A DNA stretch of 51,027 bases from an uncultured Mycoplasma sp. (GTDB taxonomy: Bacteria > Bacillota_I > Bacilli_A > Mycoplasmatales > Metamycoplasmataceae). Location of the stretch: the NCBI GenBank assembly GCA_947040455.1, contig CAMRBN010000005.1, positions 1 through 51,027 of the forward strand, given 5' to 3'. Numbering within the stretch: position 1 is the stretch's first letter; the number at the start of each line of letters is the position of its first letter. The notes under the pieces were generated by a model. It was given only the letters and a program-made list of their open reading frames with translations. It was not told the origin of the DNA and did not search any database. Below are positions 196 through 50,540 of this stretch, in pieces. Made by a program: the position numbers and the translations under genes.

Positions 196-1908
196 TTAAT
201 TAGCTATTATTTCTTCTTCAGGAGGAGAAATTAATCTTAAATCATCAGTATAAAAAATTGTGGAAGTAATAATTGGTTTTCTTCTTTTAGTTTTATAAAA
301 ATAAGGTTGTAGTCTTTCTTGAATTAATTTTTTCAATTGTTGAGTGGTTCAATTATCATGATTCTTTATTTTATACAATAGTGCACCATGAACTAATCTT
401 CTTGATTCTGTAATAATAGGAAGAGACGTTTTAACATATAAAGTTCCTCTAGAAATTATTTTGGTTCTTCCAATTATTTCATTTTTAGCTCTATTAATTG
501 TAACTACAACATGAACAAAACCACTTTCACCAAGAACCTCTCTTTCTTTAATAATTTTAGAATTTAATTCAGAAGCTATATCGCCATCAATGTAAACTGG
601 TTCTGCATCAATTCTGTTTGTAGAAAGTGTTAGTTTACGATTTAGTAATTCATATACTTCACCATGAGCGGCTATGAAAATATTTTCTGGTTTTACACCA
701 TTTTCCACAGCTGTTTGACCATGAACTACCGACATTCTATATTCACCATGATAAGGAACAAAATAATCAGGTTTTGTTAGTTGGAATATTTTATCATGTT
801 CTTCTCTATAAGCGTGTCCTGATGTATGTAAATAGCCATCTATTCGATTTTCTTTAATATCAGCTCCTAGTTTATATAAATTATTAATTAATAATTCGAT
901 TTTAATTCGATTTCCTGGAATAGGTGAAGATGAAAAAAGAATTAGATCTTTATTTTTAATAGTAACTTGCGGATGTTTACCAATGGCCATTTTTGCCAAA
1001 GCAGCTAATTGTTCACCTTGTGAACCAGTAGTTAAAATAACAATTTCATTTTCTGCAAATTTAGAGATATTTTTTTTATCAATAAAAACGCTAGCATCAA
1101 CATCAATATACCCTATTTCTCTTCCTATATTTACTCCATTAACCATTGAACGACCAAACGAAACAACTTTCTTACCTAATTCAGCAGCCATTTTAATAAT
1201 TGCACTAATTCTTGTCATGTTTGAAGCAAAAGCTGTAATGATAATTTTCTTTTCAGCTTTTTCCATATAGTTTCTAATATCTTTCAAAATATCTTTTTCA
1301 GAAGGTGAGTGGAAAGGTCTCATGGCATTTGTTGAATCAGAAAATAAAACACTTAAATTTTCTTCTCCCATTTGCTCTAATTTTTTAAAGTCCGTCATAT
1401 TCCCTATAGGGGTATAATCAAATCTAAAATCACCAGTAAACATCAAGGAACCATTAGGTGTTGAAAATCTAATACCAAAAGCGTCAGGAATTGAATGTTG
1501 AGCAGTTCAAAAATCAACAACTACATCATCAAAAACAAATTTTTCATCTTTTTCAATTTCAATAAATGTAACATTTGTATGCAATTTTCTTTCACTTATT
1601 TTAGCTTCTAAGTATTTAATAGCAATTTTCGGTGCATAAATAAATTTAAGATCTACCTGTTGCAACAAATAAGGGATACCACCCATGTGATCTTCATGAC
1701 CGTGGGTCAAAAATAATCCTTCTATTTTATTTTCATTTGCTTTTAAGTATTTGTAGTTTGGGATAATGCCTTTTATACCAGTAATTGAACCATTACCGAA
1801 TTTAATTCCGGCATCTAAGATAAAAATTTTATCATTATGTTCTATCACAAGTGTTGATTTACCAATTTCTTGCATTCCACCTAAACCAAAAAATTTTGTT
1901 GGTTGCAT
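196..1908 (-). CDS. rnj: Ribonuclease J, metallo-beta-lactamase family
   Basis: Length 570 aa, normal for RNase J. The enzyme is a cytoplasmic endo- and 5'-exoribonuclease in mRNA decay and rRNA maturation. The metal-binding motif HGHEDHMGG sits near residue 70 after an N-terminal GGMQEIGKS segment. Downstream are the beta-CASP motifs (SDSTNAMRP; ASNMTRI; TTGSQGE) and HTSGHA near residue 360. In-frame TGA codons read as Trp split it into fragments under the standard code. The start has a GGAG ribosome-binding site 6 nt upstream. mycoplasmas often carry one or two RNase J paralogues; this one cannot be assigned to J1 or J2 from sequence alone. A scrap of its 3' end is repeated at positions 1-55. 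Confidence 0.93.
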
Positions 1909-2064: not shown

Positions 2065-5000
2065 TTAATTAATTGTGTTTGCCATAATGATTACTTCACT
2101 ACTTAAATTAATTTCTTGAGTTCCACCATAGTAATCTATATTTAATTCTAAAGAATAAGAAACTTTATAATTTCCGTCAGCTTGTTTGGTTACTATAATT
2201 TTTTTATTATCTTGATTTTGTCCAACAACAATGTTTTTAAATAATGTATTTTCAAATAAACCATTATTATCAATAGATAACATATCTAAAAGTGATGTGT
2301 TATTTGATAATAAATTAAATGATAATCCTTCATTACTTAAATTTTGCAATAAAGTTAAAGAAGCACTTATATTGCCATTTTCTGCTTCAATTCAATTGTT
2401 GGAATAAATATTTGAATTTGATTTCAACACTTCTCTACCAAATGAAGTAACAAAATTTTGCAATGGTATTTCAACACTTTCATCATTTCCTAAACCTTGA
2501 ATTAACAGTTTATTAGCTTCAGAGTTTAAATCTTCCATTATCGCAATATCAAAAGCTCCAGATTTATTAATTAATACTTTATTATTTGTTGGATTTAATT
2601 TATCAACAGTAAATAATTCATCTATGGTTTTAAAGTTTTTTATTGATATACGTATTGAACTAGTAATATCGGTTGAAATTTCAAGAGATAGATGACCTCC
2701 TATAGTTCCTTCCTTATCATTAAAAATTAAAGTTGGTTCCATAATAAATTTCATTGTTTGTCCTGAAAAATAGTGGTTCATTATATTAGTGTCAAAAGTA
2801 ATATAATTCGCTCAAATATTTGGATCTTGCTTTGCTTTCAATAATACTGTAGAAGCATAAGTGGTTGGTTCTATATTGTCAGTTTGAGTAAATTGTTCTG
2901 CCAAAATGTTAAGAGCGGCTTGTTGTATATTTAAATTAACTTTATAATCCATTAATGAATTAGTAACTGGAGGAGTTTCTACTCAATCAGTTCCATTAAA
3001 TTCCTTTTGTGAAAAAGTTATTTTTATATTTCAATTTGTATTTGTAAAATTTATATTACTAAATTCCATATTTGAAATAAAGCCGTTATTATAGAATTTA
3101 TTTATATCTAAAAAAGTTAGAAAATTATTATATTGATATCTCACTAATAGAGGTGTTGTATTGTATTTAAAAAACTCCTCTATAGTAATACTTTGCATAC
3201 TCTCATCTTTTAAATCATTAATAAAGTTTTTATGGTTTATCAATATTTCAAAATTCATAATATCTAATTCTGAATTTGATTGGAAAATAGGAAAGTTGGA
3301 AATAGTAATTTTTTCGTTGTTAATTTCATGACCTTGATATGTACCATTTAATAATAAAATTAATTTTCCTGTTGATTGCGATGAACCTTGGACAATAGAT
3401 AATGATAAATCATTATAGAAATGATTGGCAACCAATCTCTTATTTAATTCATCATTTGTTAATTTAGATATATTTGTGTATTGGTCCAAATTTAATTGTC
3501 TAGCAACTGCAACATATTTATCAACTTCTAATTTGACATTAGGACTAAGTTCATCTTCAGGAGAATTTGCTGTATAACTAATTTGTCCGCCTTGTGCAAA
3601 TTCTGCCAAAACAGGAGGAATTGGGTTTGGATCAGGATTAACAGGAGGAATTGGATTTACAATTACTTCACTACTTAAATTAATTTCTTGAGTTCCACCA
3701 TAGTAATCTATATTTAATTCTAAAGAATAAGAAACTTTATAATTTCCGTCAGCTTGTTTGGTTACTATAATTTTTTTATTATCTTGATTTTGTCCAACAA
3801 CAATGTTTTTAAATAATGTATTTTCAAATAAACCATTATTATCAATAGATAACATATCTAAAAGTGATGTGTTATTTGATAATAAATTAAATGATAATCC
3901 TTCATTACTTAAATTTTGCAATAAAGTTAAAGAAGCACTTATATTGCCATTTTCTGCTTCAATTCAATTGTTGGAATAAATATTTGAATTTGATTTCAAC
4001 ACTTCTCTACCAAATGAAGTAACAAAATTTTGCAATGGTATTTCAACACTTTCATCATTTCCTAAACCTTGAATTAACAGTTTATTAGCTTCAGAGTTTA
4101 AATCTTCCATTATCGCAATATCAAAAGCTCCAGATTTATTAATTAATACTTTATTATTTGTTGGATTTAATTTATCAACAGTAAATAATTCATCTATGGT
4201 TTTAAAGTTTTTTATTGATATACGTATTGAACTAGTAATATCGGTTGAAATTTCAAGAGATAGATGACCTCCTATAGTTCCTTCCTTATCATTAAAAATT
4301 AAAGTTGGTTCCATAATAAATTTCATTGTTTGTCCTGAAAAATAGTGGTTCATTATATTAGTGTCAAAAGTAATATAATTCGCTCAAATATTTGGATCTT
4401 GCTTTGCTTTCAATAATACTGTAGAAGCATAAGTGGTTGGTTCTATATTGTCAGTTTGAGTAAATTGTTCTGCCAAAATGTTAAGAGCGGCTTGTTGTAT
4501 ATTTAAATTAACTTTATAATCCATTAATGAATTAGTAACTGGAGGAGTTTCTACTCAATCAGTTCCATTAAATTCCTTTTGTGAAAAAGTTATTTTTATA
4601 TTTCAATTTGTATTTGTAAAATTTATATTACTAAATTCCATATTTGAAATAAAGCCGTTATTATAGAATTTATTTATATCTAAAAAAGTTAGAAAATTAT
4701 TATATTGATATCTCACTAATAGAGGTGTTGTATTGTATTTAAAAAACTCCTCTATAGTAATACTTTGCATACTCTCATCTTTTAAATCATTAATAAAGTT
4801 TTTATGGTTTATCAATATTTCAAAATTCATAATATCTAATTCTGAATTTGATTGGAAAATAGGAAAGTTGGAAATAGTAATTTTTTCGTTGTTAATTTCA
4901 TGACCTTGATATGTACCATTTAATAATAAAATTAATTTTCCTGTTGATTGCGATGAACCTTGGACAATAGATAATGATAAATCATTATAGAAATGATTGG

Positions 5001-5364
5001 CAACCAATCTCTTATTTAATTCATCATTTGTTAATTTAGATATATTTGTGTATTGGTCCAAATTTAATTGTCTAGCAACTGCAACATATTTATCAACTTC
5101 TAATTTGACATTAGGACTAAGTTCATCTTCAGGAGAATTTGCTGTATAACTAATTTGTCCGCCTTGTGCAAATTCTGCCAAAACAGGAGGAATTGGGTTT
5201 GGATCAGGATTGGGGTTTGGATCAGGATTGGGGTTTGGATTGGGGTCAACAGGTGGATTAGTAGGTTTATCTTGTGTACAAGAAATAAGAATAAGAGGAG
5301 AACTAATTATACCTATAGCCAAGGTTCCAATAATCAAATTAGATAGTTTTAAGATTTTTTTCAT
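2065..5364 (-). CDS. Surface lipoprotein with two identical 1.55-kb internal repeats
   Basis: A 1099-residue prolipoprotein. The N-terminus MKKILKLSNLIIGTLAIGII leads to a lipobox ending SCT, so the mature protein would be lipidated at Cys and exposed on the surface. A linker rich in Pro-Asn/Asp follows, then a roughly 515-residue module present twice, the copies being joined by VNPIPPVNPDPNPIPPV. Segments such as GKLILLLNGTYQG...ITISNF resemble the mycoplasma Lipoprotein_17-type repeat domain. The reading frame stays open across both copies with TGA as Trp. The start at 5364 is chosen over an upstream Met because it begins the signal peptide and has AAAGGAATT upstream. A paralogue lies at 48747-50540. 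Function unknown; antigenic size variation is an inference. Confidence 0.9.
2090..3639. repeat. Tandem repeat copy 2 (C-terminal module)
   Basis: Second of two direct repeats with a period of 1572 bp (exactly 524 codons). The copies agree wherever I compared them, and the translated segments given for both are identical. Identity starts at 2090 and ends at 3639, with mismatches at 2089/3661 and 3640/5212. Confidence 0.93.
3662..5211. repeat. Tandem repeat copy 1 (N-terminal module)
   Basis: First (promoter-proximal) copy of the 1550-bp repeat, separated from copy 2 by 22 bp that encode part of the Pro-Asn linker. The upper breakpoint falls inside the Pro-Asn/Asp repeat coding region, which could have served as the recombination site. 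Confidence 0.93.
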
Positions 5365-5563
5365 TTTAATTCCTTTAACATTAAATATATGTTGAATGTA
5401 TTTGATATAAAGTTTTAAATACACAAAATACACACACATTATAACATAAATATATTTAATAAAACATTGCTATTAAAATAATAATTTTTTTAATTAAAAT
5501 TTAATATTTCAATTAAAACAATGTTATGATTTAATTGTATTTTAAACTAAAAATTTAAAATAT

Positions 5564-5611: not shown

Positions 5612-6763
5612 ATGAAAATATATGATGTTGCCATTATTGGTGGGGGAATTATTGGAGGAATGATTTCTTATGAGTTATCTAAATATAAATTAACCAATGT
5701 AATATTTGAGAAGAATCCTGTTTTGGCTGATGAAACAACTAGAGGAAACTCAGGTGCCATTCATGGTGGTTTTGATCCCATTCCGGAAAAAGTAGAAGCT
5801 AAATTAAATGTTTTAGGAAATCAATTATGAAGAGAAGAGATTTTCCCAAATTTAGATTTTCCGAAAGCTCAAATAAATAGTTTAGTAGTTTCTTTTAATT
5901 CGGAAGAAGAAGAACACTTAGATATGCTATATGAAAGAGGTTTAACCAATAAAGTTCCTAAGGAATTTATGAAAATTATTTCTCAAGAAGAAGTAAGAAA
6001 AATAGAGCCCAATATAAGTTTAGAAGTTACAAAGGCATTATTATGTACTAGTTCATGAGCAATAGATCCTGTTGCTGCAACCAAATCTCTTTTTGGTGTT
6101 GCTGAAAATAACGGAATTAATATACAAAGAAATTCTGAAGTTACAAATATAAAATATATTAAAGATTATTTTGAAATAACTATTAATAAATCTGAAATAT
6201 TTTATGCTAAAAATATCATCAATGCTGCTGGTCACTATGCAGATATAATATCTGAAATGGCCGGATACCCTGACTTTAAACAAAAAGTTAGAAGAGGAGA
6301 ATATAGAATTTTAGCTAGATCTGAAAGACATTTTGTTAATTCTATAATTTTTATGGTACCAACAATTCACGGAAAAGGTGTAATTGTGGCTCCTATGTTG
6401 GATGGACATATTTTAGTAGGTCCAACAGCAGAAGAAGATGTTCCTAAAAATGAAACACGCTTAGTAACTAGAGAAAAATATGATGAAATTGGAAGAATTG
6501 GAAATAAACTAATTCCAACTTTGAATTTAGAAAAAACAATTATGACTTTATCTGGTTCAAGACCCATAGATATTGAAACAGATGATTTTATCATTAAATA
6601 TGCAAGTGGAAATAAACATTTTATTAATGTTGCCGGTATGCAATCACCTGCAATCGCTTCATCTCCTGCAATTGCTATTGAAGTATCTAATTTACTAAAA
6701 AATAATGGAACAAAAATGGAGAAAAACAACTCTTTTAAACCTAAGTTTAAACTTATGTATTAA
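5612..6763 (+). CDS. glpO: Glycerol-3-phosphate oxidase (FAD)
   Basis: Length 383 aa. The N-terminal dinucleotide-binding fold YDVAIIGGGIIGG is followed by TTRGNSGAIHGGF, typical of FAD-dependent glycerol-3-phosphate oxidases of the DAO family. The C-terminal part ends with an FAD-contact segment VAGMQSPAIASSPAIA. The enzyme oxidises glycerol 3-phosphate to dihydroxyacetone phosphate with oxygen, releasing hydrogen peroxide, a known cytotoxic factor in several mycoplasmas. It heads an operon with glpK (36-nt gap) and glpF, which supports this over a generic L-2-hydroxyglutarate oxidase. Length favours the short mycoplasma oxidase rather than the 550-600-residue GlpD type. Confidence 0.88.
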
Positions 6764-6799: not shown

Positions 6800-8329
6800 A
6801 TGAATGAAAAATATATATTAACGATTGACTCCGGAACTACTTCTTGTAGATCTTTGGTTGTCAACAAAAAAGGAAATGTTGTAGCTACTTCACAAGTAGA
6901 ATTTACACAATTTTTTCCAAAAAGTGGTTGAGTGGAGCATGATCCTTTAGAAATTTGAAATGCTCAACTTTCTACAATTCAATCCGTTAAAAATAAAAGT
7001 GAAGTGAAATCTACAGATATCGCAGCTATAGGAATCACAAACCAGAGAGAAACAATTGTTGTTTGAGATAAGGCAAGTGGATTGCCTGTTTATAATGCTA
7101 TTGTTTGACAAGATGGAAGAACAAAAGAATATTGTGATGAATTAATTAAAGAAGGTCATTCTGATTTTTTCACTGATAAAACTGGATTAATTATTAATCC
7201 TTATTTTAGTGGTACAAAACTAAAATGAATACTTGAAAATGTTCCAGCTGCCAAAGAAACTTTGGAGCGTGGAGACTTATTAGCAGGAACAATAGATACT
7301 TGATTATTATGAAAATTAACAAAAGGAAAATCTTTTTTAACAGATGTATCAAATGCATCTAGAACATTATTATTCAATATTCATACAATGGATTGAGATC
7401 AAGAGATTTTAGATTTATTAAAAATTCCGAAATCTATTCTTCCTAAAGTTCAACCATCAAGTTCGTTTTTTGGTGATATGACACCAGAATTCTTTTCAAT
7501 TAACGCAAAAGGAATAGTTCCAATTACAGGTATGATTGGTGATCAACAATCATCTTTATTTGGTCAATTATGTGTTGAACCTGGAATGGTTAAAAACACT
7601 TATGGTACTGGTTGTTTTGTTTTAATAAACACTGGAGACAAACCAATAAAAAGTAAAAACAGATTGTTAACAACTGTAGCTTGACAAATAGAGGGAGAAA
7701 AAACTCAATATGCTTTAGAAGGATCTGTTTTTATAGCCGGCGCTTCTATTACTTGATTGAAAAATGGACTAAAATTAATTTATGATTCATCAGAAACTGA
7801 TTTTTATGCTGATTTAGTTGAAAAAATTAAAAAAGATAATCAAAGAATTTATGTTGTTCCTTCATTTACTGGATTGGGAGCACCTTATTGAGATTCAAAC
7901 TCAAGAGGTGCTATCTTTGGACTAGAAAGAGGAACAAAGAGAGAGCATATTGTAAAAGCTACTTTAGAATCAATTGCTTATCAAGCAAATGATTTAATAA
8001 AATCAATGTCTAGTGATATTAACAAAAAAATTGAAGTTATGAAAGTAGATGGAGGAGTAAGTAATTCAAATTATTTATTAGATTTTCAATCATCACTTTC
8101 TGATGTAAAAATTGTTAAATCTCAAAATATTGAAACAACTGCAATGGGTGCTGCCTATATGGCAGGATTGCAAATCAAATATTGAAAAAATATTGATGAA
8201 ATTAAAAAAATTGCAATTATTGATAAAGAATATAAATCTCAAATTACAAATGAAGAAAGAAAGACATTAATCAAAGGTTGAGATGAAGCAGTTAAAAGAA
8301 CTTTCAATTGAACAAAAGATATTGAATAG
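6800..8329 (+). CDS. glpK: Glycerol kinase
   Basis: Length 509 aa, the usual size. A FGGY-family kinase: ATP plus glycerol gives glycerol 3-phosphate, trapping the substrate in the cell. The N-terminal phosphate-binding motif DSGTTSCRS is present, as are [23 protein letters not shown] and WQDGR, the GLGAPYW segment near residue 360, and [15 protein letters not shown] near the C-terminus. About ten in-frame TGA Trp codons break it under the standard code. The start is preceded by an AAAGA-rich leader. It supplies the substrate of the upstream glpO product. Confidence 0.95.
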
Positions 8330-27327: not shown

Positions 27328-28203
27328 CTATATAACTATATTTTCTGTGTAATTTATGGTTTCATCTGAAACAATTTTTGATTTAGATAACTTAATTACT
27401 CTAGTTGCATATATGACTACATCTGGATCATGAGAAACCATAATGATTGTTTTTCCTAATTCTTGATTTATTTTTCTTAATAATTCCATAACAATAATTC
27501 CGGTTTTTTTATCAAGAGCACCTGTCGGTTCATCAGCAAAAATAATTTCACTACTTTTAGCAAGAGCTCTTAATATAGAAATTCTTTGTTGTTGTCCCCC
27601 TGACATTTGAGAAGGATATTTGTGGATAACATCCAATAAATCAAAATCTTCAAACATTTTATGAATATCTGGTTTTTTAGTTTTATCTTTTTGTAAATAA
27701 GCACCGGTTTCAACATTGTCATAACCACTTAAATTTGTTAATAAATTATAACTTTGAAAAATAAAAGATAAGTTTTCCCTTCTAAATGTTGTCAATTCAT
27801 TATTTGATAAATATGGTAAATTTTTATCACAAACAACTAAGTTTCCCGTTGTTGGACGATCTAATCCAGAAATTAAATTTAATAGCGTTGTTTTACCTGA
27901 ACCTGATTTACCAAACAAAACTACAAATTCACCCCTTTTAATAGATAAGTTTAAATTCGTTAAAACTTGTGTAGAGTTACCTCCAGAAACATAATATTTA
28001 TTTAAATTATGAATATCAATTATGTTACCTTCTTGATTTACTAAATTTTTGTCCGTGTCTTTTTTACCCCTTCTTTTTCTATTGTTAGCTTTTGTAATTT
28101 CTTGCTTGGTTTTAAAATCAATTTTAAGAATATTAGAATCAAATAAACTCAAATCAAGCTCTGCTGTTTTTTTTAAAAATATGTCTAAAACTTTGTTCCT
28201 CAT
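27328..28203 (-). CDS. MacB/LolD-type ABC ATP-binding protein
   Basis: Length 291 aa. An N-terminal basic extension of about 60 residues (ANNRKRRGKKD) precedes the ABC domain. Walker A is GKSGSGKTT, the signature MSGGQQQRISILRAL, Walker B IIFADEPTGALD and the H-loop MVSHD. The subfamily-specific TGALD and GLDRPTTG segments place it with the MacB/LolD/FtsE-like ATPases that power FtsX-fold permeases. It starts 1 nt after the stop of the giant permease, clearly forming one transporter. Confidence 0.93.
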   Translation of the reverse strand: MRNKVLDIFLKKTAELDLSLFDSNILKIDFKTKQEITKANNRKRRGKKDTDKNLVNQEGNIIDIHNLNKYYVSGGNSTQVLTNLNLSIKRGEFVVLFGKSGSGKTTLLNLISGLDRPTTGNLVVCDKNLPYLSNNELTTFRRENLSFIFQSYNLLTNLSGYDNVETGAYLQKDKTKKPDIHKMFEDFDLLDVIHKYPSQMSGGQQQRISILRALAKSSEIIFADEPTGALDKKTGIIVMELLRKINQELGKTIIMVSHDPDVVIYATRVIKLSKSKIVSDETINYTENIVI

Positions 28204-28204
28204 T

Positions 28205-31200
28205 TTACTCTCCCTTCAGTAACATAATTGGTTTAATTCTGTTTAAATTCAATCATGAAATCAATGATGTAGCTGAAAATATAAGAATAACTAATAATGA
28301 TGAGAATAACACGTCAGTTGGTCCTAATGATATAGATAATGAAATTAACACTGTTGAATTAACCACGCTGCTAAACATTGTTATTAAACCTATAGTCAGT
28401 GGTATTGACAGAATAATAGCTAACAAGATTATTGGAATATAAAGTGAGAAAAAGAGTTTCATTTTCTCAACATTACTATAACCTAAAATGGAGAAGATAG
28501 CAACATTCCTTTCATTCTCGCTAATAATTAAAGTAGAAATCATAATTAATATTGTCATAGATATTAGTAACGATAATACAATAACCATGGTATTAACTGA
28601 ATTGATCGCATTTGTCGTATTCGAAATAAATCCTGATTCAATGTTTTTAGACTGTATATCTTTAAAACTTGGCCCTACAACATTATTACTATTATATATT
28701 TCTGAAAATTGTTCTAATGCATTGTTCACAACAGTTTCCATTCCTGGATTAATCATATCAGGTAAAGAAATGCTGTTGTCTCCTAGTAAAAATATTTCAA
28801 TTAAAGATGATTCTTCAGAGTGTGTAAAGTTAGGATTGATAATTCTTAATGTTTTTGCAAATACAGAGTTATTGACCATACTTGAACCACTTCCTTTAAT
28901 TTTATAAAATAATTCTTTAAATATACTGGTATTTTTTTCTTGTTGCTCATTAGATAAATTAGTTGATATTAAATCTATTTTATTGTTGGCAGATCAATAA
29001 CCATTTTCAGAATATAATCCTAAAGATTCGGTTGCTTGTACAGGGTTTTCATCAATTGATAAAATTCCATTAAACGGTATTTCGTTAGCAACAGCTAATT
29101 GTGGATCATCTAAATAAGTAATGGCATTAATAACTTTTTGTGTAGTGGTTCATTCTTCGTTAATAAAGGTTTCATTGATACCAACAACCTCCACTGTTCA
29201 AGTTGTTTTTTTAGGAGTGCCTAAATTAAGTGTTTTTTTAATGTTTTCAGTAAATCTACTTGTAGTATTCATAACAGTTAATTCTAATTGTGAACCTATA
29301 TTTAAATTTCTTTTATCTTTAACAACATGATTAATAACCACAGGAATTACTTCTTTAGAATTATCTCACCTATTGTCAATAATTTCTAAGAGATTGTTTC
29401 CGTGATTATCCAATATTTGAACTTGTTTTGAATTTGGGTCAAAACCATTGATTGTTGGCGTATGACTTTGATCATTTTTATTTACAGTAGTTGCATATGA
29501 ATATTTTTCATTGGTTGATTCATCAAACATCACACTACCAAAACTTAAGAAGAAATCTTTTACAAATTCAGGAGCATTTTCATTTTCTGGATTGGTACTA
29601 TCATAATTTAATGATTTATCATATGCACTTACTAAAAATTCTCTATATTTTTCTCTAATTCCTGATTGTATAAAGGGTTGATTTCCAGAAATAACAATAT
29701 CTTCATAAAAATATTCTCCCGTTGTATTATTGATATTTCTATAAACAAATTTTGAATCTTCAGGTTTTTCTAAATTAATTAAATATTTAAAGTAAGGAGC
29801 TTTATTAACCAAGTCATCTGCTAACTTATATTCATCACTTTGACCGTAATTAGTTAGTCCTTGGGTTCACTCTAATCATTTTGCAGCATACTGAGATGTT
29901 TCTACAACACTTACTCTTTGTGAATCGGGCATTGAGTTAAATAAAGAGTCTCAAACATTAGTTTCTACACCCCCACTATTAACAATTAAATCAAATGAAG
30001 ATTTTGTAATAATGTGTTTATCATGAATAGATGGAGTACCATTAGGATTGAAACCATTAGCATAAATGGGGTTGATAACATCATTTGGTCCAGGAGCAAA
30101 ATAAGTAGATAAATAAGTTGATCCTTCATTTGGATTTCCTATAGGTACATATAATAAATTTCCCACACTTTGTTTATCAAGCGTTGTAATTGCACCACCC
30201 TCTAATGTTGGAGTAATTAAGTCTATTTTAAAATCATATTTTCTATTTTTATATGTTTTATTAACTGCATTACCAAATGCATTTTGTGACGCTAAAGAGA
30301 AACTCATAATAGTAACTGTTAATAATAATGATATTAATAATGATATTAATTTTCAAATAGAGTTCAATGAAAGTGATAATGTAAATTTAGACTTAATATT
30401 TTTTGAATGAAATTTGTTTTTAATCACTTCAGCTGTTTTTGAATTATTTAATTGAAATGAACCATCCATTAATTTAACTGGTTTTACTTTCAATAAAAAT
30501 AGCGTGGTAATGATTGTTAGTAAAACCAAACCAATTAGGGGTACTAGAACCGTAATAATTAAGGACAAAATGTCAAAGGCGCTAGGGCCTATGGGGAGCG
30601 TTCAATATATAGAGAAAATATTCATAACAGGAATCTGCAAGAAGTGTCCAACAATATATCCTAAAGTGGCACCAAAGAAAGCAACAATTAAGGCAAAGAG
30701 ACAAATAGATGCAGCTATTTGAATCGATTTGTATCCTTGAGCTTTTAAAATACCTAATACTTTAGATCTAGATGATACATATCTTTTTATTACAAAAATT
30801 GTGATAATACCAATTAAAAATATTAAAATACTTGAAATTAATAAGTTAATATTGTTAATTGTTGATATCAAAGTTTCAATTGTTTGCACCCTCAATGATA
30901 TTTCTGGTTTTAATGGGTTAGTTTCATTGTATAAATAAGCTTTTTTAAACAATGCATTATTTTTTTCAGCTACACTTAAATCATTATAATTATTTAAACC
31001 AGTAGTGCTAACATAGATATATTCATTTATTTTATTTTGTAAAATTGTTGGTGTAGTATCACTTGGAGCAATAACTAAAAAATATTTATTAATCACTGCG
31101 TTGGCGTTTGATTCCTTAACTCTATCAAAACCAGATTGATTAACATAGACCAATGCTTGAGTTTCTGTATTAACTTGAATATTGTTTAAGTCAGTAACTG

Positions 31201-34200
31201 GATATAAGTAATCTACCGTTGAATCTTCACCAATAATTAAAAACTCTAATCCGTTAACATCAATTTTATATTTATCTGGTATATTTTCTATTAAATTTTG
31301 CATTTCTAATGAATCTTTAGGAGCATTTTCTAAAGTCATTGGATAAACTTCTTTTTTATTATTTTTTAAGTATGCTGAACTTACTTTCGCTAAGTAAGAA
31401 CCAACATCTGATATCACTATTTTATAATCATCTACAGTCACCTCTGTAAAAGAATCAACAGCAGCCAAAAGAGCATCAGATAAATTTATTCCAAAAATAT
31501 CAGGATTAGTTGCCAACATACTTGATAAATATTCTAAATAATCTAAATCCAAAGTCAATGTTATGGGATCATCTTCATAAATGGGTTGATCAATATAAAC
31601 ATCTTCACCTATTAATGAATCCATAATACCTTCGAAACCTTCATAATTAATAGCTACTGTGTCTGTTGAATTTTCAGAATTAAAGTTATATAGCTTATCT
31701 TTAATAACATAAGATAAATTACCCAAGCTACTTGCATCAATGGCACTTTGATTAACTGTAAATCATAACAATACTGGTGCGTTCATAACAGCACTAAATG
31801 GACTCATAATAACACTTGATATTCCTAAATTATCTAAAACAAAATTAACACCACCTGATAAAGTTTTTAATGTTGTTTGCCCCAAAGTTAACATTATTTG
31901 AGATTTTTCTTTATCCTTTTTAGGTAAAAATAAATTTATAAAATCCTTAGTAACCAATTCTGATTTAGTTGGACCACTTGAATTAGTGGCTCCATCCAAT
32001 GTAATAATAGAAGATAACCCAGATACCAAAGAAATAGTATTGTTATTTATCTTTAATTTTCCTTGAATTTCATCATAATCGAAATAATAATTAATTGCTT
32101 CCTTGGTTATTCCGTTTGACATTAATTCTTTTGGAGTATATTGAGTAAACTTCATTGCTGTGGCTTTAACATTTGAAAAACCATCTAAAATTCCGAAATT
32201 TAAAATAAAATTGGGGTTAAATGATTCTGTTGTGGAATTTAAAATTTTACCAATAAAAGAATTTTTATTCAAGACATTGTTCACAAGTTTGATTATTTCG
32301 GATGCAACACTATTTGTTGTTGCACTACTTGGTTGTAGATTAAGTTCTGCAAACTTCATTCAAAATGAATAAAAACTTAATATTTCAACAGTCATATCTT
32401 TTGCTTGCAAAGGATTTTTATCATTATAAAATTCATTGTAAACTTGTGTAGCTAAAATATCATAAATTGGATTTTTACTTGACGGTTTAACATTGGGGTT
32501 GATCATATTAATAAATTTGTCAGCTAAAGAATTGGGAAGAATCGGATTAGCAATATTCCCTCCCAAAGCACCACCTGTTGTAGGTGATGGCATATTGGGA
32601 TCAAAATTAACAAATTCTGTTTGTTTCATAAACTCTAAATAAACATCTACTCTTTTTTTAATGTCATAATTAGAAATACTAATGTCTCCCGCAAAATTAA
32701 AAATATAATTTGTTAAATATTTTCCTATAGTTGATTCTGGGTCTACAAAATAATTGGGATCATTAAGGGAAATAGATAATTCTTTTAAAGCTGTTTCTAA
32801 ATCTTGTAATTCTGGTGTTGGCGATTTTAAAAGTGATTGCAAGTCTCTAATGTCCAGTTTATTAGGGTCGGATTCTGGTTGATAAACACCAACTACACCA
32901 CCTACTAATTCTGTTTTAGAAGATATATTTAATAATTCAATCATGGCATTGTGTAGGGCATCATCATTATCATTGTTGTGTCCTAAAGAATTTAACAAAG
33001 AAGCGGCCATTCCAGACATTGAAATAGAATTAATAATATATTTTTGTGTTTCTTGCTCATGATCTACATAGTAAGTTCGAATGACTGAGTTATTTTTAAT
33101 ATTTGTTGTCATTGCGTCAACATTAATTAAATCAATAATTTTATTTAAACCACTATTCATATTTAAAAAATCATTATTAGGATCTGGATTAACAACCCCT
33201 AAATTACCATTTAATTGATTAAGAATAGGTCCAAATAAAGCTGCAGATTCTGCATCCAAAACATTTTCTTTTAAATATTTAATAATTTTTGAAAAGTTTA
33301 ACTGTGTAACTATTTGCTTTAAGCCGGCTTTAAACCCTACATTAGGGTTGCTAGGATTGTCTACAAAAATATTATTTAGCAAAATAGGTAAAACATCTCC
33401 TGTACCAATTGTTTCTATAACACCTTTGATGTTTGGTGAATTATCATAAAAATTGGTTCAAATTTCGATAATTGTAGCATCCATATCAATTGATGCAATA
33501 ATTTTACGCAAACCTATTAAAGCTTCTCTGGGATCATTTACAAAATTTAGAAGTGTTGCAATATCAAATTCATTACCAAACATTGCTTGAAAAATTTTAT
33601 TAATATTTTCGATTTGTTTGTTTATATATAACGGATCTGGATTAGATATTACAACATTTAATATTTCATCTAAAAAACTGTTTCAATATAGATCCTCGTT
33701 ATATTTTGCGCCTTCATAAAAGATTCCAAATATTATTTTTTGCAATTTTCTAGATTGAATTTGAGAAGGAAATGTCAATACATCAGCAAATCCATTTTTA
33801 GACATCGATGTTGTTGTGGCTTCTATAATGATTTTTAAGTTTTTAGGTGAAATTAGTGGTTCTAAAATACTGGTTAATGAATTAATAAGGTTATCTCTAA
33901 AAACATTAAAATTATTTGATTCTTGTCAATTATTAATAATGTCAGAACCGGGAATTACAAGTTTAAACGGAATAGAATATTTATTTTCATAATTAGGGTT
34001 TTGTTTAGCTCAACCATTAGGTCCAACTATTACTCTCATATCTCCTGCAGATGTGGTGGTTGCAAAATTTAAACGACTTGTTTGAATGAATTTTGCAAGT
34101 GACTCATCAGTACCATCAAATTGATAATTACTCATATCTTTAGAAAATCAAGTTTTTTTACCACCCATATTTTTTTCTTCTAAAACATAATATCTACCTA

Positions 34201-36283
34201 CAGCATCATTTGTATTGGGAGCTTGTTTTGTTATTCCATAAATTTGTCCATTGGCATCTTGCATTCTAATTATTTTGGCATTTGACATTTTTAATCATTC
34301 ACTAGAACCAATGTGTTCTTGGTTGACAGGAATATATGAATAATTTTCAAAAGTTATAATAGGATTTATATAGTTTTTGTCTACTGACATTCCACTAAAA
34401 ATAAGATCAATAATTTTAAAAATATATGATTCAGGGACTTTTGTTGACATTATGTCATCTTTTGAGCTAAGTTCAAATAACAAAGACTTTTCTTTGCTTT
34501 CATTATAAAGTTTACCAACATTTTGTTCAACCGAAATATTGTTATTTAATTTAATCTCTTGATTTTCATTACCACCATTTATAAAGTGAAATGTGTGTGC
34601 AATATTGTCTAAAAATCCTGAAACAGTAATATTTTCTCTAAGACCAATATTCTCAATATCACCAACAAGTCTCAATATTTCGTTGTATAAATTTTCTTGA
34701 GCGATAGCTTTAGCGCCATCATCTATTTGTTTAATTCTATTGTTTTTAGAATTAGCATCATTAAGTATTTTTTGTATTTTACTTGATGTATCTCCATTTA
34801 AATCTTTTAAAATGGCATCAATATCCGCTTGTGATATGAATTTAGATTCTCTTTCTATTCATAAAATAGAACCTGGATTCAAAGTGTTTGATGATGGTGC
34901 TCTTGGTCCATGTATTTTGATGTTATTTTTAGGCTTTAATTTTCTGTTCAAGTCTTTTGATGTAATAGATTCTGAAAGACGTATTGTTTCTTTTGGATCA
35001 ATAACTGTAATACCATCTTGTTCAACAATTTCAATAACTTGTGTCTTTTTTCAATAAGATGTTTGTGAGTAATATTGTTGTTCTTGTTTTGTTAAACTTA
35101 ACATATAATCTTTATAGTTTTTGGTCCATAATTTGTTGTTTTCTGCTTGACTATTTAAAAAATCATAATTAATTTTACTATGATATCTTTCATATTCATA
35201 ACTTGTTCTTTCTTTAACAATTCAAGTTTTAGGGATAATAAAATTACTTTGAATAACAAAAAATAATTTAGTATTTGGCTGAACTATGTCATTGACAATT
35301 GTGTTATTATAATTAATTGAAAAACCGCCCGGTTTAATGGTTTTGGTTAATGATTGTGAAAGTCTTCATTTTTTATTATTTGTGGGGGCAATAATGTCAA
35401 AAACACCCTGTTGTTCTAATGATTTGTCAATAGAATAAATGGCACCACGACTTTCTCCTGCACTTTTAGTAAAACCAAGTAATCTAGCAACTTGATCAGG
35501 AGTAATAGTAATCAATTTTCCTTGCTTTTCTCATGATTGTTTTAGTGATTGAGAAATGGTTGCTTCATGATTATCTGCATTAATATAAATGCTTTTCACG
35601 TTGGTAATTCTATCATCTGTAGATGAAAAAAAACCGTCTACACCCGGAACAATCATTATTAAATCACCTAATGTAATGTTTGAAGCTCCAGATTTAAAAA
35701 CAGTTATTTTATCAGTTGCATTTAATCTATAATTAACATCTACTGTGATTCCTGGTGATTTATATTCTTTTAAGGGTGTTGGTGGAAAACGTTTTGATTC
35801 TACAACTCCTGTTTCAGAATTAACAAAATTGGAAATATTATTTACTTGTAAAAAACGATATAAATCCTTAACTTTTAAGTAATTATTGTTAGTTTCTGCT
35901 CCCATAAAATTCAATTTTGAAATTTTAATATAACCCTCTTTTGTAAAAGGGTGAATCACAACATCTGTTTGAGGAAATCTAATGGTGTTTTGAGTATTGA
36001 CTGTTGCTTCATCAGAGAAATATTCGGTTTTTTCTGGAATTAAACCATCAGGAATGTATGTTTTTGAGGGTTTTTCACCTGTTGCTTCTATTTCTGTATC
36101 AACTGTTAAATCATGAATCTTTGAAACTTTTTTATAATCATCAAATTGAGAAGTATAATTGGCTTTAACATCACTTAAAAGAGTGAATACACCAGAAGAA
36201 AGGAAGATTAAAACGGTTAATCCTAAAATTAAACTTTTTGTTTTAGAGAATGATTTTCAAATTTCTTTGAATAATTTTTTCAT
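28205..36283 (-). CDS. Giant FtsX-family ABC permease (2692 aa)
   Basis: One uninterrupted code-4 frame of 2693 codons including the stop. An N-terminal helix (residues about 15-37) is followed by a roughly 1750-residue extracytoplasmic part, then a helix group with the FtsX-like turn ILKAQGYKSIQIA (about 1830-1910), another helix near 1980, and a second external domain of about 480 residues. A final FtsX block follows (NVAIFSILGYSNVEKMKLF) and ends LKGE. Duplicated FtsX units with intervening soluble domains are the MacB-like mechanotransmission design, here greatly enlarged. It would couple ATP hydrolysis by the adjacent ATPase to work on surface lipids or proteins. Substrate unknown. The ATG has AAAGGAAA upstream. 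Confidence 0.88.
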
Positions 36284-48746: not shown

Positions 48747-50540
48747 TTAACTTGGTACAACAGCTCCTGTATTAATGTCGATTGATGTTTCGTTTGTTAA
48801 GGTAATGTTTTGTATTCCACCTAGATATATTAAATTTATATCAACTTTATAAGTTACCTTATAATCTGTGCCATTTATTTTGGTGATTGTAACTTCATTG
48901 GCACTATCTGGAAGAACACTTATTAAATTTATATACATATCTTCAAATGCTCCCATGCTTCCTTTTGATAAAATACTCTTTAAAGTACCTTGTCTTCCCA
49001 AGATGTTTAAATTAATTCCTCTTTTGTTAAGATCTGTTAAATAATTTAGAGAAGTTTCAAAAACGTCACCAGGAACAACTTCATTTAATTGATTGTTAAA
49101 AATAGTGTCATTTGACTTGAAAGCTTTATTTCAAGATCTATCAAACAAACTTGTACTTAGTTTTTTGCTAGCACCAATTGCTAATGATTCTATTTGTGCT
49201 TTGTTGGTCCTTAAATCAGCACTTAAACTAGTTTCAAATTGTCCACCCGGAACCAAAACAATTTTGTTTTTGTTAGCAGCTAAATTAGTAGGAGATAATA
49301 AGTCTCTTGTTGTCTGGAAGTTATTTATAGTAACTTTAAAACTAGCTATCTTAGGAATTCCTGGGGCAGAGATTACAAAATCACCACTCAAAACACCAGT
49401 AACATCATTTGCCTCTAGGTTTGGAGTTTCTATTTTAATTGATTCTACATTACCAAAATAATGGTTAGCTATTCTAGCATCCAAAGTAATATATTCATTA
49501 AATGGCGGAATTGTTTGTTTTCATTTAGCTCAAACTGTTGAAGCATATATTGGTTGCAAGGCATTATGTTCTTGTATTTTTACTCTTTTAGCTAAAACGT
49601 CTAAAGCTGCTTGTTGAATGTCTAAGTTAACAGAGTAATCTCATAATGTTGTTTTTCGTTCTTTTTCAATTTCTCATTTACCAAGTTCAAATACTCTTTC
49701 AATAAAATCAAATGAGATATTTCATTTGTTACCAATTACATTACCTCATTTAATATCAAATTTACTTACAAAGTTGTTTTCAACTAATTTATTTAAACTT
49801 AATCTTTGGTTTTGACCTTGAGAAAATTCTTGGATAAAGATTTCATCATTATATTTCAAAAATTGCTCTATGGTTAGTGTTTTAATATTTTCTGCATCTC
49901 TTAAATCACTAATAAAATTAACTTCATTAATTTGAGCGGATCTACTCAAACTTACAAGGTTAGTGTACTTGTTTGTTAAAAAACCAGTAATATTAATGAT
50001 TTCATCGTTCATAAAGTATCCATCATATTCTCCGTTTAAAGATAGAGTCAAAGTTCCCTCTGCTGTCGAACCATCTATGATTTCAAGTGATAAATTTGTA
50101 AAATCAGCATTTTCCATAATAATAGTATTTAAAATAGCATCATCGAAATTAATAATATTAGAATATTCAACAAAACCAATCTGTTCTATTATTGGCAAAT
50201 ATTTATCTACTTTTAGTGTTACAGAATTTAAAGATATTTCTCCTCCTTTTTTGAATTGATCATAAGCAGGTGGAGTTGGTTCTGGATCCGGGTTCGGATT
50301 TGGATTCGGATTTGGATTTGGGTTCGGATTTGGGTCTGGATTTGGGTTCGGATTTGGGTTCGGATTTGGGTTCGGATTTGGGTCTGGATTCGGATTTGGG
50401 TCTGGATTCGGATTTGGATCTGGTGTTACATCTCCTCCATTATCTTCGCTAGTACATGATATTAGGGCTAGTGGTGAGATCGAACAAATCATTACACCCC
50501 CCATTAGTACTCATTTAATACTTTTAGTTAGTTTTTTCAT
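48747..50540 (-). CDS. Surface lipoprotein with Pro-Asn/Asp repeat linker
   Basis: Length 597 aa. The N-terminal MKKLTKSIKWVLMGGVMICS leads to lipobox ALISCT. A linker of about 50 residues made of PNP and PDP units follows, then a domain with AEGTLTLSLNGEYDG...INITGF matching that of the lipoprotein at 2065-5364 and resembling Lipoprotein_17-type repeats. Other segments (VDKYLPIIEQIGFVEYSN; DIQQAALDVLA) also align with that paralogue, but this one has a single module. The start at 50540 is chosen because it opens the signal peptide. Length variation of the linker is likely. Function unknown. Confidence 0.88.
50278..50423. repeat. Hexanucleotide-type tandem repeat encoding (PN/PD)n
   Basis: Imperfect 6-bp units of the GGATTT / GGGTTC / GGTCT type (plus strand) repeat about 24 times, encoding alternating Pro-Asn and Pro-Asp on the minus strand. 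A shorter version lies at 5194-5250 in the paralogue. Such arrays tend to change in length by slippage. Confidence 0.8.

Follow-up and report, generated by a model that had tools for sequence, protein, structure and literature searches.

The locus and its product

The window analysed here, a stretch of 51,027 bp from an uncultured Mycoplasma sp., corresponds to the complete contig C5 in a draft genome (G000) of 820 kb and 16 contigs. On its minus strand lies a lipoprotein gene (2065..5364) carrying two identical ectodomain modules in tandem. It is bordered on one side by the ribonuclease J gene rnj (196..1908, minus strand), whose product shows 99% amino acid identity to that of the sister species G005, and on the other by the putative gene of a GlpO-type FAD oxidase (5612..6763, plus strand; named from the character of its sequence), after which comes glpK (6800-8329). 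Both flanks are syntenic: the order RNase J, lipoprotein, GlpO, GlpK is common to G000, G005 and two remoter relatives, G008 and G006. Farther along, a 2692-aa open reading frame with FtsX-like permease domains (28205-36283) adjoins an ABC ATPase gene (27328-28203).

Under genetic code 4, with eight TGA codons of the gene read as Trp, the longest open reading frame (2065-5439, minus strand, 1124 aa) contains both copies of the repeat. Translation probably begins at the ATG at 5364, which is preceded by AAAGGAATTAAAATG with its Shine-Dalgarno-like AAAGGA, and the resulting protein counts 1099 aa. It would begin with a lipoprotein signal peptide (5278..5364), predicted from the lipobox motif ...PLILISC, and continues with a Pro/Asn/Asp-rich linker (5182..5277) containing an 18-bp repeat (5195-5240), a first module of 506 residues (LAEF...LSSEV), a junction, the second module and a tail of 8 residues. 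At the DNA level, and always on the minus strand, the N-terminal repeat copy (3662..5211) takes in the last 30 bp of the linker and the first module (5181-3664), the junction is occupied by a unique 22-bp spacer, TGTAAATCCAATTCCTCCTGTT (3640..3661), the C-terminal copy (2090..3639) follows, and the gene ends with a unique tail (2065..2089; IMANTIN and the stop codon) that is absent from the junction. We propose that the product is one lipid-anchored protein presenting two identical ectodomains of ~506 residues in series, connected via a Pro-rich linker. The lipobox suggests that the protein is exposed at the cell surface, and avidity or extra reach would result from the serial arrangement of its two identical modules.

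The exact repeat comparison over the 51-kb window establishes that positions 2090-3639 and 3662-5211 are identical at 1550 of 1550 bases, without a single mismatch, which excludes a chance origin; the offset of 1572 bp is 3 x 524, and the reading frame is thereby kept. The preliminary description had reported two in-frame copies of 1550 bp with this period, had seen no difference between them by eye and had recognized a surface lipoprotein gene doubled by a whole domain, all of which is borne out. Its breakpoints had been placed in the Pro-Asn/Asp linker; this is correct for the upstream breakpoint only. The opposite one sits at the module's C-terminus (...LSSEVI), at which junction and gene tail part ways. 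Elsewhere in the window no exact direct repeat exceeds 55 bases, and the matches of the copies in the rest of their own genome are weak paralogues only.

AlphaFold2 predicts for one module a well-folded mixed alpha/beta structure (pLDDT 87.5, pTM 0.76). The fold search of the PDB with this model gave best TM-scores of about 0.1 and no meaningful match, and for this reason we draw no function from it. Pfam and NCBIfam scans of the module revealed no credible family. With Pfam Lipoprotein_17 (PF04200, cut-off 22.4 bits) the gene of the window gave no match and the paralogue on contig C3 reached 13.7 bits, while the NCBIfam variable surface lipoprotein model (NF033817) did not match the module of the window and gave a best E of 0.022 for 2 of the 13 family members. 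The sole result of the PDB sequence search was a designed repeat protein; it contained no significant stretch and was taken as a chance hit. Sub-repeats inside the module were not established by hhalign (best probability 5%), no relation was found between the module and the ~97-aa tandem arrays of G005, and viral contigs yielded no relatives.

The genome contains three genes of this module family: the doubled gene, a single-module paralogue of 597 aa in the same window (48747..50540, minus strand; about 35% identical) and a third member at C3:84910-86694. RuvA/RuvB-like open reading frames, putative and named by eye, adjoin a paralogue. The linker of the paralogue in the window (50272-50423) encodes Pro-Asn-Pro-Asp in a tandem array of 12/18-bp units, in which length variation by slippage is likely. 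The family is clear within the genus; other genera of the taxonomic family yield weak matches only, mostly at the end of the profile formed by the signal peptide and the linker. At the locus between RNase J and GlpO, G008 and G006 have one module only, and in the G006 orthologue (L059 4158-5459, G006:C6) a stop shortens the protein to 433 aa.

Comparison with the sister species

At the same locus, between RNase J and glpO, G005 also possesses a two-module gene, with a period of 1560. The two copies within a genome differ at 0 of 1518 positions in G000 and at 3 of 1518 in G005, with dS values of 0 and 0.003, whereas the modules of the two species share 86.4% nucleotide identity, with a dS of 0.33 that is similar to those of the flanking genes (0.37 for RNase J, 0.31 for GlpK and 0.50 for GlpO). 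The informative sites number 205, and every one of them places the two copies of a genome together; neither paralogous grouping is favoured by any. The protein tree of the 13 family members has the same form, ((G000_N,G000_C),(G005_N,G005_C)), with support of 100/98 for the G005 pair, and the genes that G008 and G006 have at this locus, with their single module, fall outside the clade of the doubled genes. Gene conversion had been one of the options of the preliminary description, and this grouping of the copies by genome supports it in the sense of an ongoing homogenisation.

Both junctions read SSE(V/I)IVNxIPPV...IPPVLAEF, and the IVN element shared by them occurs in neither the present C-terminal tail nor the N-terminal linker of either species, which favours one duplication before the species split. 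Changes in the linker are common to both copies of a species, NPDPNPIPPV standing before both modules in G000 and DPIPPV before both in G005, so that the homogenised tract takes in part of the linker. Since the same two-module gene and the same kind of junction are found in a sister that has diverged by ~14% in nucleotide sequence, the duplication most likely predates the separation of G000 and G005, and its earlier qualification as very recent is not supported.

Two independent recent duplications, one per species and each at the corresponding point of the gene, would be the alternative; with a single module at the locus in the remoter relatives, this question concerns the two-module pair only. 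Such events would account for pairs that are identical or nearly so, and the repeats of the Pro-rich linker could constitute a hot spot of joining. The 22-bp spacer is itself linker-like, and its agreement with ordinary linkers is about as good as that with the other junction: its G005 counterpart, also of 22 bp, is identical at 16/22 positions to the G000 junction vs 15/22 at ordinary linkers of the G000 gene, and the G000 spacer matches the linkers of G005 better still (19). The identity of the 22-bp junctions alone was rejected as a proof of common origin, the spacer being too linker-like for this purpose. Against independent events, however, in both junctions the passage from module end to linker occurs at one and the same residue, via IVN-x-IPPV, with an IVN that is found in none of the present linkers and tails, and we consider it unlikely that the doubling occurred twice.

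Limits set by the assemblies

Contig ends share exact 55-mers within each assembly, several in this genome and many in that of G005, and both drafts look like k=55 short-read de Bruijn assemblies. An assembler working at k=55 cannot span a repeat of 1550 bp and gives a simple loop, so that two copies are a minimum; the module copy number of 2 is to be read as a lower bound, derived from short-read drafts and one genome per species. At the window start, positions 1-58 recur at the 3' end of the RNase J gene (279-336), 55 bases being exact at an offset of 278, and contig C9 has an end that connects to this vicinity through a 55-mer; the repeat reflects either a tangle of the assembly or a tandem duplication of local extent. 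Many contigs of G005 (e.g. L081, L078, L086, L077) break inside tandem arrays of ~290-306 bp, several of which encode repeats of ~97-102 residues, one of them belonging to a protein that starts like a lipoprotein, and repetitive surface-protein genes seem to cut the assemblies of the genus. In the congener G006, positions 91559-92569 of L063 (G006:C3) are repeated at +1061; this exact tandem duplication of 1011 bp comprises two identical genes, each for a lipoprotein of 268 aa from another family.

The assembler could also have acted on the copies themselves. metaSPAdes is known to collapse bulges (PMC8021871), and the 0 or 3 differences counted may thus underestimate the true number. The two copies could be old and truly a few percent apart, their differences having been erased in this way, and our simulation makes such an effect plausible for a divergence of up to about 1-3%, which leaves short bulges only at k=55. 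Copies that had diverged like the orthologues (13.6%) would, in contrast, have only 5 of 1464 55-mers in common and form bulges of about 1500 bp, and with so little sharing a divergence of this level is not collapsible by the assembler. It follows that identity within a genome is, on the sequences compared, far younger than the species split. We judge a complete erasure of old differences to be about as improbable as the independent duplications, and even then the copies would still be far closer to each other than orthologues are, and the homogenisation would hold. The three G005 differences all fall in the initial 80 bp of the repeat, at most 55 bp from each other and from its edge. Their clustering was considered as the signature of a conversion tract, but this reading was abandoned, since differences so placed are the ones that an assembly at k=55 would retain.

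That the gene truly possesses a single module, its doubling being an artefact of assembly, is very improbable. The draft consists of 16 contigs built from reads too short to cross an exact 1550-bp repeat, but the junction, in which the end of the module is followed by the 22 bp, the linker and the start of the module, is unique, in frame and matched by a counterpart in G005. The tandem junction is real, and a single-copy gene could not produce it. Finally, selection on the protein sequence instead of recombination, conceivable insofar as both copies encode the same domain, is already refuted, the copies being identical at synonymous sites as well.

A model for the evolution of the gene

The reading that we consider probable combines an ancestral in-frame duplication with a subsequent homogenisation by homologous recombination between the direct repeats, the process that remains once selection at the protein level alone is ruled out by the synonymous sites. 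A single-module surface lipoprotein gene located between rnj and glpO would have been doubled in frame, linker and whole ectodomain together, in the common ancestor of the G000 species and its sister G005. The direct repeats would then recombine by gene conversion and/or unequal crossing-over, probably in a RecA-dependent manner, and RecA is encoded in the genome. This recombination would repeatedly equalise the copies inside each genome while the species diverge. The same recombination should delete or add whole modules, and length variants of the protein are expected to result from it.

A more tentative extension, possible in our opinion and distinctly less probable than the homogenisation itself, is that the gene operates as a size switch of the whole ectodomain. 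Cells would display one, two or more identical modules of 524 residues by means of RecA-driven exchange between the 1.55-kb repeats, and selection would keep the repeats identical so that the switch works.

What appeared to be a one-off duplication thus becomes a two-species case of probable concerted evolution within a single gene, in a lineage with tiny genomes. It offers a specific locus at which to ask whether the mollicutes change the length of their surface proteins by recombining very large intragenic repeats, and it also indicates that the copy number and the perfect identity of repeats in metagenome-assembled genomes are not to be taken at face value.

Comparison with known systems

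By analogy, the gene would work like those of bacterial surface proteins already described whose tandem domains are highly identical, its own unit being unusually large. The Lmp (large membrane protein) of Mycoplasma hominis contains long intragenic direct repeats and varies in size by their insertion or deletion (PMC524362). The present gene resembles it, by description, as a mollicute surface protein gene with long identical intragenic direct repeats, its location at the surface being suggested by the lipobox; the Lmp repeat, however, measures about 500 bp, whereas the unit here is 1572 bp and corresponds to the whole ectodomain. Vaa, also of M. hominis, is an adhesin of variable size, its gene containing 1-5 cassettes that can be exchanged (PMC524362). 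The likeness lies in a mollicute surface protein built of units within one gene, the size variation being that of Vaa; but the Vaa cassettes are divergent and of about 110 aa, whereas our copies show no difference and have about five times that length.

The Periscope Proteins (SasG, Rib/alpha C, Sgo_0707) are surface proteins in which folded domains, very highly identical in DNA, follow one another in tandem, and recombination has been proposed to change their copy number (PMC8201768, PMC9704523). Our protein shares this organisation, and its unit of 524 aa with 100% identity falls within the rule used for their detection (tandem repeats of >50 residues with >=80% identity; PMC8201768). In Periscope Proteins, however, smaller domains form an array that bears a head domain, whereas here there are two 506-residue modules behind an N-terminal lipid anchor, and the signal peptide, the linker and the 8-residue tail are all that lies outside the modules; having no separate head domain on a stalk, the protein was not filed in this class. 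What distinguishes it among these systems is a repeat unit made of a complete 524-residue ectodomain with its linker, together with the evidence from two species for a concerted evolution of the copies.
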